A stretch of 37,790 nt of DNA from contig CAJOIN010000002.1 of NCBI GenBank assembly GCA_905234515.1, forward strand, positions 2,091-39,880. Direction: 5' to 3'. The translations under genes were made by a program, and so were the position numbers. Shown here in pieces: positions 1 through 37,790 of this stretch; the first letter of the stretch is position 1, and every line of letters starts with the position of its first letter. The notes under the pieces are model-generated. The model worked only from the letters and a program-made list of their open reading frames with translations. It made no database searches and was not told the origin of the DNA. Source of the DNA: an uncultured Selenomonas sp. Lineage in GTDB: Bacteria; Bacillota; Negativicutes; Selenomonadales; Selenomonadaceae.

Positions 1-452
1 GCCAGCACATCGGAAGGGTAGTGAACCCCCACATACAAGCGTGAAAAGGCCATGAGCAGGGCAAAGGAGAATACTGCATAGCGCACCTTGCCTGATAGAG
101 GGGACCACAGGATGATCCAGGCCACGGAAAAAGAAGAAACCGTGTGGACGGATGGGAAGGAGTAAGAAGTTGGAGGAGCTACCAGGGGAACAAGCTCTGG
201 GATTTCCAGAAAGGGACGGGGCCGCATGACCGTATATTTGAGGATCTCACCCAAACTGACACAGACAAGCAGGGAAAGCCCTGCTGCCAGCCCAAGCTTC
301 CTGGTTCTGGGATAGATGAGCAGCATCAGCAGGAATACCAGCCAGATGGCACCTTTATTGCCTAAAAGGGTAATGGAACAGAACAGGCTGGAAAGAAAGT
401 CGGAGCGCAGGTAATCCTGAATGAAAAGCAACAGCGTCTGGTCAAAGTTCAT
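1..452 (-). CDS. PAP2-family phosphatase, 3' end outside the window
   Basis: Reverse-strand translation contains ...VMRPRP...SYSFPSVHTVSS...LYVGVHYPSDVLA, the PAP2 motifs (KX6RP-like, PSGH-like, SRXXXXXHXXXD-like). ATG at 450-452 follows an AGGGAGGG RBS. Confidence 0.85.
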   Translation of the reverse strand, partial: MNFDQTLLLFIQDYLRSDFLSSLFCSITLLGNKGAIWLVFLLMLLIYPRTRKLGLAAGLSLLVCVSLGEILKYTVMRPRPFLEIPELVPLVAPPTSYSFPSVHTVSSFSVAWIILWSPLSGKVRYAVFSFALLMAFSRLYVGVHYPSDVL

Positions 453-716
453 AGAGCCCTCCCTGGAGTATGAATAATCAAGATATGCATCAAACTGCTT
501 TATCATAGCACCGCTATCGTTAATTTATCTGAAAAAGCATTCCAGAGAACAGGACAGATTGTTGGCAGGGCGTCAAGATTCCTTTGTGCATGGGGGCAGG
601 AACTATGAGCAGATAGCTTTGCTGACAGAGGCGGACGCAAGGCCAACAAGCCATCTTTCTTCCACCGTCTTCTCGGCAAGGAGGAGAAGGCCACGGAGGG
701 AGATACTTTCCGAAGC

Positions 717-1289
717 TTGCTTAATAAGGAAATTGCTGCCCAACGTTATGAAGGAATGACTTCGATAGAAAGACGAGAGGCAGAGGAAATCGACCAAAAG
801 GAAATATGGCTGAAGGACTTGCAGCGGGCAAAGGACTGCGAGGAGGACGGTGATGTAGAGGGCATGCTTGCCATTTGGAAACACATGGCCGCAGAGAAAT
901 GCGGCATGGCTATGATTAAACTGGGGATTTTCTACCGTGATAATGGGGATATCAAGGCGGCCAAGGAGTGGTTTCTCAATGCCACATTGGCGAATTTTGC
1001 CGATGACAGGAGCATGGGCTGGTACTTCCTGGGACTTCTCTACGCTAATGGCCCGGAGACAGACGGTGAAATGGCGTTACGTTATTTTGAAAAAGCTGCA
1101 GCTCAAGGTGCAGCCGAGGCATGGGCTGAATTGGGGCACTGCTATATGAATGGCATTGGTAGTGAGAAGGATTTGGACAAGGCTGCTGAGTGCTTTGAAA
1201 GAGGTGCTGATGCAGGAGATATGGCTTTCAATGTCTTTCTTGTTTGGAAGGGGATGGAAGACCTTCCCGATGTTGCTGAAAAAAACTAG
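717..1289 (+). CDS. Sel1-like/TPR repeat protein; true 5' end uncertain
   Basis: Repeats such as ALRYFEKAAAQGAAEAWAELGHCYMNGIGSEKDLDKAAECFERGADAGD. The listed start is TTG; protein-like sequence continues upstream in the same frame. Confidence 0.75.
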   Translation: MLNKEIAAQRYEGMTSIERREAEEIDQKEIWLKDLQRAKDCEEDGDVEGMLAIWKHMAAEKCGMAMIKLGIFYRDNGDIKAAKEWFLNATLANFADDRSMGWYFLGLLYANGPETDGEMALRYFEKAAAQGAAEAWAELGHCYMNGIGSEKDLDKAAECFERGADAGDMAFNVFLVWKGMEDLPDVAEKN

Positions 1290-1348
1290 AATCTTAATTG
1301 GCAGGTTTGAATGCAGCCTTAGGCTGGCCGCAGAGGGGGCAGACGTAC

Positions 1349-1807
1349 TTATTTTTGCTGCAGATTATCCGCCATACGCATCATGAAGGACATAAGCTGC
1401 TCCCGCTCTTCCGTGCTGAAGCCCCGCAGGGCCTGCTGCCTGTGCTCTGTGACAGGGCGGGAGAGTTTTTTCACGGCGGTTTCCCCTTTGGCTGTGAGCC
1501 GTATGGCGTTGCCCCGCTCCCTGCCTGACTCCCGGCAGATGATGCCCTTCTTTTCCAGGCGGGTGAGGGTGCGGGAGATGGCGGCGGGCTCCACCCCCAG
1601 GCGCTGGATGAGCTCTCCCTGCATGATGCCGGGAAGGCGGGCTGTGAGGTTCAGCACCATCCATTCAGAGCTGTGGATGTCCTCCTGGCTCACTGCCCCG
1701 TTCAGGGTGCGGGAGAAGGCCCGGGCCGTGCGGAAGAACTGGCGGATAAGTCCGTCATCGTAGTCATCTTGAAGGAGTTTCGTATCAGGCATCTTCTGCC
1801 TCCGCAA
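1349..1807 (-). CDS. MarR-family transcriptional regulator
   Basis: Winged-helix MarR pattern: GELIQRLGVEPAAISRTLTRLEKKGIICRESGRERGNAIRLTAKGE. Confidence 0.9.
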   Translation of the reverse strand: MRRQKMPDTKLLQDDYDDGLIRQFFRTARAFSRTLNGAVSQEDIHSSEWMVLNLTARLPGIMQGELIQRLGVEPAAISRTLTRLEKKGIICRESGRERGNAIRLTAKGETAVKKLSRPVTEHRQQALRGFSTEEREQLMSFMMRMADNLQQK

Positions 1808-2990
1808 GTTCCGGCAATTCCTGTGATCCTTTGGCAGGCCGCAGATAGTACTGGGCTGCCGACAGCAGGAGGAACAGGGCCATGAGGCTGAAGATGGCGT
1901 AAAACATACCTGTAAAGCCCACCTGCCCGGCTACGGCTCCCAAAGCGATGAGGCCTGTGCTGGTGCCTATGTCCAGCATATTGTAGAAAGTGGCGCTGGC
2001 GGCGCTGTGGCGTGAGGAAGCTACGCTGTTCAGCATCCAGGTGAGGAGTGCCGGCAGGAGTGCCCCTGCCCCCAGGCCGTAAAACACGGAGGAGAGCAGG
2101 AGGCCTGCGAGGCTGCCGGAGTAAATCATCAGTGCAAGGGCCATGAGGTAGGAAACTGCCCCGGGCAGCACCACCGCAAAGGCGCCGTATTTATCCAGCA
2201 GCCGGCCACCGAAGGGACGGGAGATAAAGACGAAGATGGTGCCCACGATGAAGAACAGCCCGGCATTATCAATGCCTTTTTCCGCCGCCAGCATGGCAAT
2301 GTAAGTGTTGACGCTGCCATAGCCTGCGCCGAAGAGGATGGTCAAAAGAGAGGCACCGGCAGTGCCCTGCTCACAGAGGCGGTTCTTGATGGAGGAGCGG
2401 ATGGGGGAGGCGGCGTTGATGCCTGCAGGGGCCTTTTTCGTCCGGCAGAGCCAGGCCATGAGGATGGCAGCAGCGCTAAAAGACATGGAAGCAGCAAAGA
2501 GCAGAGCGGGGCTCTCCTCCAGCAGCCAAAGTCCCAGGGCAGGAGCCAGGGCCATGGCCACAGTGCTGCCCATGCCAAAGTAGCCGATGCCTTCCCCCCG
2601 GCGGGAGGCAGGTATCACATCAGCAGCCATGGCAGCGGCAAAGGTTGTGGAAAGGCCGAAGCCAAAGCCGTGGATGACCCGGGCCAGGATGATGGCATTG
2701 ATGCTGGTGAAGAAAAGGTACCCCAGCACTGCCAGTATGCAGAGGCCGAGGCCTGCATAAAGGCATTTTTTCTTGCCAAAGGTCCGCACTCCCGTATCAG
2801 TGAACAGGCGGATAAAGATGGCTGAGTAGCCGAAGATCCCCCCAATCAGCCCCAGCTGCAGGCCCGTAGCACCCAGGGAAGAGGCATAGATGGTGATGGT
2901 GGGCAGGAGAAAGTGGAACCCGGCAAAGAGAAAGCCATTGGCTCCAATCAGGGCGAGGAAATTCCTCGTCCAAAGTTTTTCCGTGGACAT
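1785..2990 (-). CDS. MFS transporter
   Basis: Twelve-TM-like MFS protein (MSTEKLWTRNFLALIGANGFLFAGFHFLLPTITIY...). Start trimmed to ATG at 2990, preceded by AAGGAAG RBS. Overlaps the marR ORF. Confidence 0.88.
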   Translation of the reverse strand: MSTEKLWTRNFLALIGANGFLFAGFHFLLPTITIYASSLGATGLQLGLIGGIFGYSAIFIRLFTDTGVRTFGKKKCLYAGLGLCILAVLGYLFFTSINAIILARVIHGFGFGLSTTFAAAMAADVIPASRRGEGIGYFGMGSTVAMALAPALGLWLLEESPALLFAASMSFSAAAILMAWLCRTKKAPAGINAASPIRSSIKNRLCEQGTAGASLLTILFGAGYGSVNTYIAMLAAEKGIDNAGLFFIVGTIFVFISRPFGGRLLDKYGAFAVVLPGAVSYLMALALMIYSGSLAGLLLSSVFYGLGAGALLPALLTWMLNSVASSRHSAASATFYNMLDIGTSTGLIALGAVAGQVGFTGMFYAIFSLMALFLLLSAAQYYLRPAKGSQELPELAEAEDA

Positions 2991-3015
2991 GAAGACGCTT
3001 CCTTTCATTTGGTAA

Positions 3016-3060
3016 ATTGACATGTCAATCAATATAGCAGATTTAGATTGACATGTCAAT
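3016..3060 (-). promoter_or_regulatory. Two perfect 14-bp palindromes (ATTGACATGTCAAT) over a consensus promoter for the MFS-marR operon
   Basis: ATTGACATGTCAAT at 3016-3029 and 3047-3060. Minus-strand -35 TTGACA (3054-3059), 17-bp spacer, -10 TATATT (3031-3036). Confidence 0.85.
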
Positions 3061-3236
3061 TTTCGACCGTTTTTATGCATGTATTGCTTTTGCGGGAGAG
3101 GCTGGCCATTGGGGAGGATATTCTGGGACTGCTCTTGCTGTGCATCGGCATCGGCTCCCTCCTCACCATGCCCATGTCCGGGGCGGCAGCAGTGCAGTTT
3201 GTCATTGCGTGGTATGTGTACAGGAAGGTGCTTTGA
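3048..3236 (+). pseudogene. MFS transporter remnant
   Basis: RERLAIGEDILGLLLLCIGIGSLLTMPMSG resembles the TM1-TM2 region of a YbjJ-like MFS protein, then runs directly into an unrelated short tail; only 62 aa. Confidence 0.5.
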
Positions 3237-3305
3237 AGGGAGGATTTTGCCCCTGCTGGGGCGAAGTAGGCAGACAGGTTGGAATGTGTATGGAGGAGAG
3301 GTCTT

Positions 3306-3704
3306 ATGGAAACGAGCAAGCGTGCAGAAGCAGGCGTGGAATTCAAGCGTAAGAACAACTGTGCCCAGGCGGTACTATTGGCTTTTCAGCCGGAAACAGG
3401 TATGGAAGAGGATATACTCAAGGCCATGGGCTCTGGTTTTGGTTCTGGCATGGGCGGCATGGAAGCTACCTGCGGAGCACTATGCGGTGCAGGCATGGCT
3501 GCAGGGCTTATCAACAAAAGCAATACGCCAACCAAGATGTTCTGCAAGGAAATGCTCCAGGATTTCAAGGCTGTTGCTGGTGTCACCATCTGTGGTGATC
3601 TGAAGGGCATAAAGACTGGGAAAATGCTCTTTAGCTGTGACGACTGTGTGAGACAGTCAGTACTCGGTTTGGAAAAACGCCTGGGGAAAATGGCTGAAAA
3701 CTAA
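3306..3704 (+). CDS. C_GCAxxG_C_C family (putative redox) protein
   Basis: NCAQAVLLAF...GSGFGSGMGGMEATCGALCGAGMAAGL...C...CDDCV pattern. ATG at 3306. Confidence 0.85.
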   Translation: METSKRAEAGVEFKRKNNCAQAVLLAFQPETGMEEDILKAMGSGFGSGMGGMEATCGALCGAGMAAGLINKSNTPTKMFCKEMLQDFKAVAGVTICGDLKGIKTGKMLFSCDDCVRQSVLGLEKRLGKMAEN

Positions 3705-3768
3705 ATGCACCAATTCCTTATAAGCCTTGTGGTTTCTAGAATACATATCAAGAAGGGATTACGGAAGT

Positions 3769-4278
3769 ATGAACCAAGATGAGGTAATACGGCTGCAAAG
3801 TATCGTCAAAAAGCTCCAATCTGAGGATGGATGCCCCTGGGACAGGGTACAGACCCACGAGAGTATAAAGGCTGGTTGCATTGAAGAAGCTTGTGAGGTT
3901 CTGGCAGGTATCAATATCCTGACAGAAACAGGCAAGGCTGATAACCTGAAGGAAGAACTGGGAGATTTGCTTCTGCAAGTCATCTTCCATGCCAATCTGG
4001 CAGAAAAAGAAGGGCTGTTCGATTTGCAGGATGTGGCCCGGGCTGCCGCTGATAAGATGGTGAGGCGTCACCCGCATGTATTCCATGACCCCATGCGGGG
4101 CAAAGACGGACAACCAGTTACGGACTGGGTAGAAATCAAGCAGCTGGAGAAAGAGGGGCGTGAATGGGAAGAGGAGTATCTGCCTGGGGCGTTGGAAGAA
4201 GGGCGGGAGCTCATTAACAAGGCTGCGAAACGCAAGGGCTTGTCAATGCCCTCTGAAGGAGGAGATAGATTAAGATGA
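3769..4278 (+). CDS. mazG: MazG-family nucleotide pyrophosphohydrolase
   Basis: LRSEDGCPWDRVQTHESIKAGCIEEACEV...EELGDLLLQVIFHANLAEKEG...KMVRRHPHVF. Confidence 0.92.
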   Translation: MNQDEVIRLQSIVKKLQSEDGCPWDRVQTHESIKAGCIEEACEVLAGINILTETGKADNLKEELGDLLLQVIFHANLAEKEGLFDLQDVARAAADKMVRRHPHVFHDPMRGKDGQPVTDWVEIKQLEKEGREWEEEYLPGALEEGRELINKAAKRKGLSMPSEGGDRLR

Positions 4279-33348: not shown

Positions 33349-33369
33349 TGCTCTTATAAATATGGTAAA

Positions 33370-33620
33370 AGCAATGCGGAAGACATGATGTCTGCGGCAG
33401 TCTCTTCAGAGAGCGGGGCCTTGGCTGAAAGCCCTGTGGGAAAAAGCAGATGATTACCCCTTCCAAGCTGCAGGGCCGAAGCCTTTGGTGGGTAGGTCTT
33501 GCCGGAGCAATCTCCGTTAAAAATGTCCAAAGTGGCTCTGAGTTTTCAGGGCAAGCAGGGTGGAACCGCGAGTTTGTGACTCGTCCCTTCATTAGATTGA
33601 AGGGGCGGGTCTTTTTTAGT
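33370..33620 (+). ncRNA. T-box leader (probable Thr specifier ACC) with terminator
   Basis: T-box core AGGGTGGAACCGCG (33557-33570); Stem I AGAGAGC...CTGAAAGCCC; terminator GACTCGTCCCTTCA...TTGAAGGGGCGGGTCTTTTTT; directly precedes thrS. ACC near 33456-33458. Confidence 0.92.
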
Positions 33621-33679
33621 TTTACGTCTTTGGATACGCTTTCCTGCGGGTGTCCGGGGCGGTTTTAGGAGGAATTTTC

Positions 33680-35605
33680 ATGCTGAAAATCACGCTGAAA
33701 GACGGTGCGGTGCGCGAAGTAGCCGAGGGTACGTCCGTAATCGATTTTGTGAAGCAGGTGAGCAACAGCCTGGCCAAGAAGGTGCTGGCTGCCAAGGTGG
33801 ACGGCGAGACCGTAGACCTTACCCGCGTCCTGGACAAGGATTGCCAGGTGGATTTCCTGACCTTTGAAGAAGAGGATGGCCGCTGGGCTCTGCGCCATAC
33901 GGCTTCCCATATCCTGGCACAGGCCGTTAAGCGCCTCTATAAGGACAACAATGTGCAGCTGGCTATCGGCCCTGCCATTGATAACGGCTTCTACTATGAC
34001 TTCGATATTGACCGCCAGCTGACGGAGGCTGACCTGCGGGATATCGAGAAGGAAATGAAGAAGATCGTCAAGGAGAACCTGAAGCTGGAGCGCAAGGAAG
34101 TCAGCCGCGCTGATGCCATCGCCTTCTTCAAGGAGAAGGGGGAGAACTACAAGGTAGAGCTCATTGAGGACTTGCCGGAGGATGCTATCATCTCCATGTA
34201 CTCCCAGGGCGAGTTCACGGACCTCTGCGCCGGCCCCCATGTGCTTTCCACGGGCAAGGTCAAGGCCTTCAAGCTCCAGAGCGTGGCAGGAGCTTACTGG
34301 CGCGGCAGCGAGAAGAACAAGATGCTCCAGCGCATCTATGGCACGGCCTTCGAGAAGCAGGCTGACCTGGACGAGTATCTGCACATGCTGGAGGAGGCTG
34401 CCAAGCGCGACCACCGCAAGCTGGGCAAGGAGCTTGACCTCTTCAGCCTCCATGAGGAAGGCCCTGGCTTCCCCTTCTTCCACCCCAACGGCATGGTGAT
34501 CCGCAACGAGCTCATCAATTACTGGCGCGAAGTGCACCGCCGCTATGGCTATCAGGAAATCAAGACGCCCATGATCATGAACCGCAAGCTCTGGGAGACT
34601 TCCGGCCATTGGGATCATTATAAGGAAAACATGTACTTCACGAAGATCGATGATGAAGATTACGCTGTGAAGCCTATGAACTGCCCCGGCGGCATGCTGG
34701 TGTACAAGTCTCACCCGCACAGCTACCGCGACCTGCCCCTGCGCATGGGCGAGCTGGGCCTGGTGCACCGCCATGAGCTCTCCGGTGCTCTCCACGGCCT
34801 GTTCCGGGTCCGCAATTTCACCCAGGACGATGCCCATCTCTTTATCACTCCCAGCCAGATTGAGGAGGAAATTCAGCATACCATCGACCTGTTCGATGAG
34901 GTCTACAGCACTTTCGGCCTGTCCTACACGGCAGAGCTGTCCACCCGTCCCGAGGATTCCATGGGTTCTGATGAGATTTGGGAGAATGCTACCAATGCGC
35001 TCCGCAATGCTCTGGAGCACCGCGGCCTTGAGTACATCATCAACGAGGGTGACGGCGCCTTCTACGGCCCGAAGATTGACTTCCACCTCCGTGATTCCAT
35101 CGGCCGTACCTGGCAGTGCGGTACCATCCAGCTGGATATGCTCATGCCTGAGAAGTTCGACCTGACCTATGTGGGTGAGGACGGCGAGAAGCACCGCCCT
35201 GTCATGCTTCATCGCGTGGTGTACGGCTCCATCGAGCGCTTCATCGGTATTCTCATCGAGAACTATGCCGGCGCTTTCCCGGTATGGCTGGCTCCCGTGC
35301 AGGTGAAGATCCTGCCCATCACGGATAAGCATGCTGACTATGCTTATGAGCTGAAGAAAAAGATGTTTGACCTGGGCCTCCGCGTTGAGGTGGATGACCG
35401 CAACGAAAAGACGGGCTATAAAATCCGTGAAGCCCAGGTGAAGAAGATTCCGTATGCTTTGGTAGTGGGGGACCAGGAAGTAGAGAATGGCACTGTGACG
35501 GTCCGCCGCTACGGCGAGAAGGAAACCCAATCCATGGCAGCTGAGGACTTCATCAAGCTGGTACAGGAAAAGATTGCCAGCAAGAAGTCTGCCAGCGAGG
35601 AGTAA
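33680..35605 (+). CDS. thrS: Threonyl-tRNA synthetase
   Basis: TGS domain plus class II motifs: HTASHILAQAVKRLY, MNCPGGMLVYKSHPHSYRDLPLRMGELGLVHRHELSGALHGLFRVRNFTQDDAHLF, LHRVVYGSIERFIGILIENYAGAFPVWLAPVQ. ATG 33680 after AGGAGG. Confidence 0.98.
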   Translation: MLKITLKDGAVREVAEGTSVIDFVKQVSNSLAKKVLAAKVDGETVDLTRVLDKDCQVDFLTFEEEDGRWALRHTASHILAQAVKRLYKDNNVQLAIGPAIDNGFYYDFDIDRQLTEADLRDIEKEMKKIVKENLKLERKEVSRADAIAFFKEKGENYKVELIEDLPEDAIISMYSQGEFTDLCAGPHVLSTGKVKAFKLQSVAGAYWRGSEKNKMLQRIYGTAFEKQADLDEYLHMLEEAAKRDHRKLGKELDLFSLHEEGPGFPFFHPNGMVIRNELINYWREVHRRYGYQEIKTPMIMNRKLWETSGHWDHYKENMYFTKIDDEDYAVKPMNCPGGMLVYKSHPHSYRDLPLRMGELGLVHRHELSGALHGLFRVRNFTQDDAHLFITPSQIEEEIQHTIDLFDEVYSTFGLSYTAELSTRPEDSMGSDEIWENATNALRNALEHRGLEYIINEGDGAFYGPKIDFHLRDSIGRTWQCGTIQLDMLMPEKFDLTYVGEDGEKHRPVMLHRVVYGSIERFIGILIENYAGAFPVWLAPVQVKILPITDKHADYAYELKKKMFDLGLRVEVDDRNEKTGYKIREAQVKKIPYALVVGDQEVENGTVTVRRYGEKETQSMAAEDFIKLVQEKIASKKSASEE

Positions 35606-36896: not shown

Positions 36897-36953
36897 TGGT
36901 GCCGGAAATCGGACTTGAACCGATACGTTGTTGCCAACGCCAGATTTTGAGTC
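36897..36953 (-). other. 3' fragment of tRNA-Leu(CAA): anticodon loop to CCA, candidate att site
   Basis: Minus strand GACTCAAAATCTGG-CGTTGGCAACAACG-T-ATCGGTTCAAGTCCGAT-TTCCGGC-ACCA: anticodon loop CTCAAAA, variable arm CGTTG/CAACG, T-arm, acceptor 3' strand. No matching 5' half is adjacent. Confidence 0.88.
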
Positions 36954-37066
36954 AGCCCTGAGCAATAGCCTATTTTACACTAAGTAGTGCAAACCCGCAT
37001 AAACAAAGGCTTTTTACTTGTAGCCGTTGTCTAATTTGGGCTATTTTAGTCGTAGAAGTTCAGTTG

Positions 37067-37087
37067 GTTAGTATCAAGTTAGTATCA
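37067..37087. repeat. Short tandem direct repeat GTTAGTATCA
   Basis: GTTAGTATCA-A-GTTAGTATCA, about 115 bp from the tRNA fragment. Confidence 0.6.
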
Positions 37088-37157
37088 GCATTTACAAAAC
37101 ACAATCCCCACTTTTGGGAAATAATGTTTTTATCAGGAAAGGTATATTGGCATAGCA

Positions 37158-37190
37158 AAGCCCGTCTGTGTGGTAGACGGGTCTTTTTTT
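37158..37190 (+). terminator. Intrinsic terminator with no upstream CDS in the island side
   Basis: GCCCGTCT-GTGTGGT-AGACGGGTCTTTTTTT. Confidence 0.85.
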
Positions 37191-37259: not shown

Positions 37260-37790
37260 GCTGCCAATGCTCTTATGCAGAGCGTCCTTTACACGAAATG
37301 GCAGCCCTCTATGGGGCTCGATGGTTGCCCTCGTCCATGAGGGATTATTATTTGTAGTGCTCATCCATGAGCACGGTCATCCTTGACGTTTTTTGGTGCC
37401 CCCGTCCCTGGGGGCACGGCCCGCAGCTGGCCCGCGGCAGGGCTGTCACGGGGCTTTGGTGGGCACGTCGCCCACGTCGCTCCGTCACAGCCCTGCCGAA
37501 ACTCACGCTTCGGAGGGCGGGAGTTCGCCTCGCAGGACACATCTTCCCTTGGTGGACAGGCTTCACTTCGTCCCTTCCAGCCCAGAGCTGACCTTACGAC
37601 CAGCTCCGGGCCTGCAGGGACTACGTTCCCGCCTGTCCAGTCGGTCAGAAGTGTCTGCTCGGGGTTCGGGGGGCTTCGGTTTCCTTGTTCACGCTTACGG
37701 CTGCGACGTTCAGCTGTGCTCGTCCTCCGATAGTGCCATTACGCCTATCAGGGGCGGAGAGGGGGGGCGGCGTTCCTTCCACTCATGACG
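37260..37790. other. GC-rich, hairpin-dense noncoding region; candidate structured RNA or palindromic repeat element, continues beyond the window
   Basis: Consecutive palindromes at 37269-37283, 37303-37318, 37328-37343, 37357-37374, 37396-37417, 37436-37497, 37585-37606, plus long-range GGACAGGC/GCCTGTCC and GGACAC/GTGTCT pairs. Confidence 0.65.

Follow-up and report, generated by a model that had tools for sequence, protein, structure and literature searches.

What does a dense cluster of short hairpins near the end of a Selenomonas contig represent, on which strand should it be read, and would it act as RNA or as DNA? The window, i.e., the whole stretch of 37,790 nucleotides analysed, is the end of contig C2 of the uncultured Selenomonas genome G000, and the cut falls in a hairpin that relatives have complete (G and L numbers designate genomes and loci throughout). 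The sequence-only reading of this DNA had described five hairpins with different stems and a recurring loop, and had proposed a repeat-hairpin RNA or protein-binding array whose pairing is under selection.

Hairpins, loops and their conservation

All five hairpins are present (37269-37283, 37303-37318, 37328-37343, 37357-37374 and 37396-37417) and lie far beyond chance in shuffled sequences; indeed, the array is the window's densest 125-nt stretch of hairpins with a 6-nt spacer, and its 28 stem base pairs were matched by none of 20,000 dinucleotide shuffles. Folded as single-stranded DNA, 37296-37420 gives a z-score of -4.4. Only three of the five (those starting at 37328, 37357 and 37396) are conserved, whereas L018, L019 and L021 have kept neither GCTCT/AGAGC nor most of AGCCC/GGGCT; the GCTGCCA/TGGCAGC enclosure of the first hairpin (37260-37266/37299-37305) is in the sequence but is likewise not preserved in any of these three loci. 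On the other hand, a conserved hairpin of the same loop type, GTC-ATCCTT-GAC at 37376-37387, had been omitted. The loop shared by the hairpins, which had been given as RTCCMT in three of them, is actually RTCCNT in four, and its informative form is the complement on the minus strand, ANGGAY, the opposite strand having been read originally. The four conserved hairpins are the following.

37328..37343, minus strand: CsrA-type hairpin CCCTC-ATGGAC-GAGGG (motif scan, conservation)
37357..37374, minus strand: CsrA-type hairpin GTGCTC-ATGGAT-GAGCAC; GTGCCC/GGGCAC in relatives is a compensatory change
37376..37387, minus strand: CsrA-type hairpin GTC-AAGGAT-GAC; GCC/GGC in right-end copies is a compensatory change
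37396..37417, minus strand: CsrA-type hairpin GTGCCCCC-AGGGAC-GGGGGCAC (motif scan, conservation)

The array and its flanks have homologues in G001 (twice), G003 and G031, and the search for homologues with covariation, suggested as a check of the original proposal, yielded eight array copies from four related genomes with compensatory stem changes, so that the proposal of an array whose pairing is under selection is supported. In the alignment of these copies (A1) the four hairpins keep their pairing in 95.5% of the cells and 4 pairs are changed on both sides, the covariation being 0.107 as compared with 0.052 ± 0.015 after shuffling (reached in 0 of 500 shuffles) and lying above the slid controls as well. 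Thus, the statement that stems differ while pairing is kept holds for these four hairpins but not for the first one originally described, nor for most of the second. Over the eight copies the loop reads ANGGAN in 25 of 27 scorable cases, the remaining two being AGGAAC. A covariance model of the array (R1), run on 381 genomes of the class, finds matches in just these four, and searches of plasmid and phage DNA gave no homologue of the array or of the arms described below. Two sets of candidates were discarded: 55 pattern matches in IMG/VR, a number close to the chance expectation, and L105 (with its relative L066), a weak model score that sits in coding sequence.

The minus-strand sequences of the loops are AGGGAC, AAGGAT, ATGGAT and ATGGAC, i.e., C-[ANGGAY]-G hexaloops on differing stems of 3-8 bp, and the minus-strand RNA fold (z-score -3.6) yields these stem-loops, some with one extra pair within the loop. 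Four such hairpins occur within 90 nt of the minus strand and none on the other strand of the array; the whole 37.8-kb window contains five on both strands together, four of them in the array, while 50,000 shuffles of the array contained none or one, and two just once. These loops match the binding site of CsrA/RsmE, which consists of an ANGGAN hexaloop by NMR, with the SELEX consensus RUACARGGAUGU, whose AC and GU pair to enclose a loop of six nucleotides (PMC7652899), and has been described as a "CANGGANG-containing apical hexaloop" (PMC4894983). The motif is therefore not an anonymous one, and its likely partner can be named. Stems of SELEX winners are mostly 4 bp or fewer (PMC7652899), and the 8-bp GC-rich stem of the array is more stable than most of them; the loop spacings of the array, ~16, 25 and 30 nt, bracket the optimum of 18 nt quoted for one CsrA dimer (PMC4894983). 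The host G000 encodes a CsrA (PF02599, 87.7 bits) with the RNA-binding residues L4 and R44, and its csrA directly adjoins fliW and a FlaG gene. Judged by loop, closure and arrangement, the four conserved hairpins are most likely CsrA/RsmE-type RNA-binding hairpins, arranged as in the sponge RNAs CsrB/RsmZ. Rfam gave no match to CsrB, CsrC or RsmX/Y/Z in the window, even at E 5, and none in L018; the covariance models of these RNAs are, so far as is known, gammaproteobacterial. Matches to mir-662 and similar families were dismissed as chance palindromes.

Among 1.3 Mb of fetched loci, a redundant collection of which many members were picked for a related pattern, clusters of at least three C-ANGGAY-G hairpins (stem at least 4) within 250 nt were found only in this element and in G524, a csrA-bearing genome from another family of the phylum. 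In the latter, hairpins that share this loop but differ in their stems stand in tandem between genes (C13:27578-27829, C18:22686-22810, C54:172459 and 176252), with 13 matches on one strand and none in the reversed control. At least one of these arrays lies between convergent genes and is flanked by A and T runs; the G524 arrays may double as (bidirectional) terminators and thus give only cautious support to the generality of the motif. In G515 and G639, which lack csrA, one or two RTCCNT-loop hairpins (L216, L217) directly follow a tRNA, so that the loop alone is not proof of a CsrA site. These cases would suit hairpins acting as transcription insulators or as terminator-like REP elements, with a CsrA-like loop acquired by descent or chance; as an explanation of the array this is very improbable, for no T run follows the window hairpins 3′ on the minus strand, the loop is kept while the stems change, all four hairpins face one strand, and the shuffles did not reproduce them.

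Two other repeats carry similar loops. In genus g160 (G440, G565, G700; L212-L215, L221-L223) a repeat of ~200 nt, present in several copies per genome, has one or two C-ANGGAY-G hairpins and is possibly another CsrA-binding RNA, and contigs C80 and C137 of G000 (L210, L211) contain a repeat, TTTCTTTGGCGCAAAGAAAA...CACTTCACGTGGC..., with one GGCCCC-AAGGAC-GGGGCC hairpin.

The genomic island and the recombinase element

The part of the window from position 36955 onwards belongs to a genomic island inserted in tRNA-Leu(CAA), as shown by the remnant of this gene at its border (ARAGORN reports no tRNA in the window), by the intact tRNA-Leu(CAA) at the same chromosomal place in G001, G002 and G004, where the site is empty, and by the ~6.8-kb island of G003, which is bordered on one side by the complete tRNA and on the other by the same remnant of 57 nt. 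The features around the array are listed below.

36898..36954, minus strand: 57-nt 3′ part of tRNA-Leu(CAA), which breaks off at the anticodon loop; island attachment site, from the intact tRNA of relatives
37067..37088, plus strand: direct repeat GTTAGTATCA, two copies with 11-bp spacing; arm-type sites, probably for the island's own integrase
37160..37190, plus strand: intrinsic-terminator-like hairpin, reading rightward; other terminator-like hairpins are there in L018 and L022
37195..37300, minus strand: conserved outer block of the left end, aligned in the window, L018, L022 and L021
37435..37498, no strand assigned: palindrome with 20-bp stem, first larger hairpin of the left arm; at the same position in L018 and L019
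37531..37790, no strand assigned: further part of the left arm, rich in palindromes, up to the contig end, which interrupts a hairpin that is complete in relatives

The array starts about 370 bp inside the island, behind the direct repeats and the terminator-like hairpin. Pairs of different sequence with the same 11-bp spacing occupy the same place in other islands, namely GTGGCTACAC (G001), TGACTAACTG (G003) and GACTTACT (L022), and such repeats probably serve the integrase of the island itself as arm-type sites. Four islands share arm repeats with this spacing but of different sequence, and three of them continue with a terminator-like hairpin and the conserved block. The outer block holds the first of the hairpins originally described, which does not keep its pairing in relatives, together with an AAAGGAC that is conserved and may provide a GGA site in single-stranded form. 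In G001 a 7.7-kb island (C2:117980-125660; L164, L165) is bounded by CTTTAGGGACGGATTA repeats, its far end carrying a separate integrase fragment and its near end the array element; the possibility that the array is part of the island integrase module was rejected because this island has its own att repeats, 7.7 kb apart, and that separate far-end fragment. Cargo found beside arrays includes, at L020, a restriction operon of the Z1 type, at L018 a fragment of Z1 and at L021 an ImmA/IrrE-Fic gene. The L020 operon (173-4195, in G031) encodes REase_II, a Z1 helicase and a GIY-YIG protein and is immediately adjacent to an array copy at the phoH boundary; the intergenic DNA of the G031 arm upstream of phoH is too diverged for an empty-site comparison. 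Elsewhere in the window a T-box leader (33365-33591, plus strand, 108.9 bits) precedes thrS (33650-35605).

Array copies form both inverted ends of a ~3-kb element that occurs twice in G001, with the GGA loops on the outward strand at both ends of both elements. The L018 element encodes one tyrosine recombinase (307 aa, PF00589; nearest solved structures Cre and XerD), lying between palindrome-rich, GC-rich arms of ~1 kb whose matching stretches are 75-95% complementary. Relatives of the recombinase at ~47% identity are common in the family, and a scan of genome contigs with the recombinase found just one distant relative. Long hairpins occupy fixed positions in the L018 and L019 arms (e.g., L018 2160-2270), and between window 37531-37660 and L018 one hairpin is at the same place with a wholly different stem sequence. 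The larger arm palindromes contain no GGA hexaloops and therefore need another explanation.

This architecture introduces the main rival, according to which the hairpins act as DNA. They would then be inverted-repeat or folded single-stranded sites that terminate a transposon of the tyrosine-recombinase type, comparable to integron attC sites or to the ends of IS200/IS605, and the 6-bp spacer that they share would serve for crossover or recognition. The idea of an array of core sites with a common overlap sequence preceded the minus-strand reading and has been retained. It draws on the inverted placement of the array at both ends around a Cre/XerD-like recombinase, on the single-stranded DNA fold of the left arm (z-score -7.7), on the lack of a promoter in the arms, and on the further palindromes with compensatory changes in the arms, where 11 pairs show two Watson-Crick types, a count biased towards pairing since the structure was predicted from the same alignment. 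In core sites of tyrosine recombinases, however, the arms and not the spacer alone are normally conserved, whereas here the stems vary and the loop is fixed; moreover, the exact ANGGAY consensus with its C-G closure would be left without a reason, and such arms are absent in four inspected relatives of the recombinase. We regard this rival as quite unlikely, although DNA function and CsrA binding could both be true, the structured ends having embedded CsrA sites.

Like integron attC sites, the array conserves structure over sequence next to a tyrosine recombinase, but the L018 enzyme has no match to TIGR02249 (IntI) in NCBIfam, its best models being those of XerC/XerD, far below cut-off, and the hairpins of the array are short and single, have a fixed hexaloop and lie at the ends of the element, not in cassettes. 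RIT and other tyrosine-recombinase transposons (PMC3414803) share with the element a size of ~3 kb, a tyrosine recombinase, inverted repeats and palindromes; unlike RIT elements with their three adjacent recombinases, L018 and L019 have one recombinase gene each, along with palindrome-rich arms of roughly 1 kb. The PF00589 enzyme also differs from the Y1 HUH transposase of IS200/IS605 elements; PATEs were rejected as being IS605-related by their authors' account.

Proposed transcription of the array and its possible effect on CsrA

It is fairly likely, in our judgement, that the array consists of four or more CsrA-binding stem-loops in a row, transcribed outward from the mobile element and binding host CsrA; transcription, binding and titration are what we infer from the sequence. 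An RNA would be transcribed outward (leftward in the window) from the tyrosine-recombinase element nested in the genomic island, would present C-G-closed ANGGAY hexaloops, partly joined by A/U-rich spacers, and would be bound by several CsrA dimers. Titration of host CsrA in the manner of CsrB/RsmZ, or a coupling of element RNA to the CsrA level, would be the likeliest outcome.

As to the origin of such an RNA, scanning with the sigma-70 consensus revealed no promoter-like site on the sense strand of the array in the window, which gives 370 bp upstream of the array, or in the left arm of L018. The L018 recombinase has a perfect -35/-10 of its own, and the left array lies downstream of this gene in sense orientation, with an apparent terminator (found by eye) between gene and arm, so that transcription of the array would depend on read-through or on a promoter that the scan does not recognise. 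The right arm could be served by a weak, divergent site resembling a promoter (L018 3941-3968, 9/12).

The same facts bear on the possibility that CsrA binds the array as a cis control affecting how stable the element's own RNA is or how it terminates, without meaningful titration of the host pool, the site being located in the 3′ part of the recombinase transcript at the left end or in the transcript leaving the right end. The sense orientation behind the recombinase gene and the divergent site fit this possibility, as does the number of sites, four being few compared with the about 18 CsrA subunits carried by CsrB (PMC7652899). Against it stand the terminator-like hairpin that divides the recombinase from the left arm and the fact that, following the sense direction beyond the array, no ORF of the element is encountered in the window, L018 or L020, the latter being also the reason why titration is slightly preferred. 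We regard cis control as unlikely.

Relation to known Csr systems and implications

The sRNAs CsrB/CsrC and RsmX/Y/Z of Gammaproteobacteria resemble the array in having several stem-loops, whose stems vary and whose hexaloops are ANGGA(N), and in a CsrA-encoding host; unlike them, the array sits at the ends of a mobile element in a Bacillota genome that has fliW, its window copy has four hairpins only, and neither an sRNA promoter nor an Rfam match accompanies it. CsrA-sequestering RNAs have been described mainly in Gammaproteobacteria, and many CsrA-bearing bacteria have no homologues of them. Another parallel is the flaA leader of Campylobacter, an mRNA that titrates CsrA through adjacent ANGGA-hexaloop hairpins with compensatory changes in a FliW-type host (PMC4894983); this leader, however, is an mRNA 5′ UTR, whereas the array is non-coding and is repeated at both ends of a mobile element. 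FliW and the genes controlling CsrB have been reported to be anti-correlated (PMC4894983, PMC7652899). Mobile DNA that interferes with the host Csr/Rsm system is known from RsmQ, which is plasmid-borne, and from csrA genes on mobile elements (PMC9928087, PMC7366521, where CsrT of Legionella ICEs is also cited); these elements encode a protein, whereas the array element would carry an RNA ligand. The part of the literature covered contained no report of a mobile element with a CsrA-binding hairpin array, nor of a Bacillota genome that combines FliW with a CsrB-like array.

Taken further, the array may belong to a Bacillota mobile element with a CsrA-decoy RNA at both ends, tuning host CsrA (with effects on flagellin, metabolism or its own transfer) where control by FliW instead of RNA would be expected, a proposal that we put forward tentatively, as possible rather than probable. 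If true, it would place RNA control of CsrA outside the Gammaproteobacteria, in a genome with both csrA and fliW, and would mean that mobile DNA acts on a host master regulator via RNA rather than protein; clusters of C-ANGGAY-G hexaloop hairpins would be its testable sequence signature.
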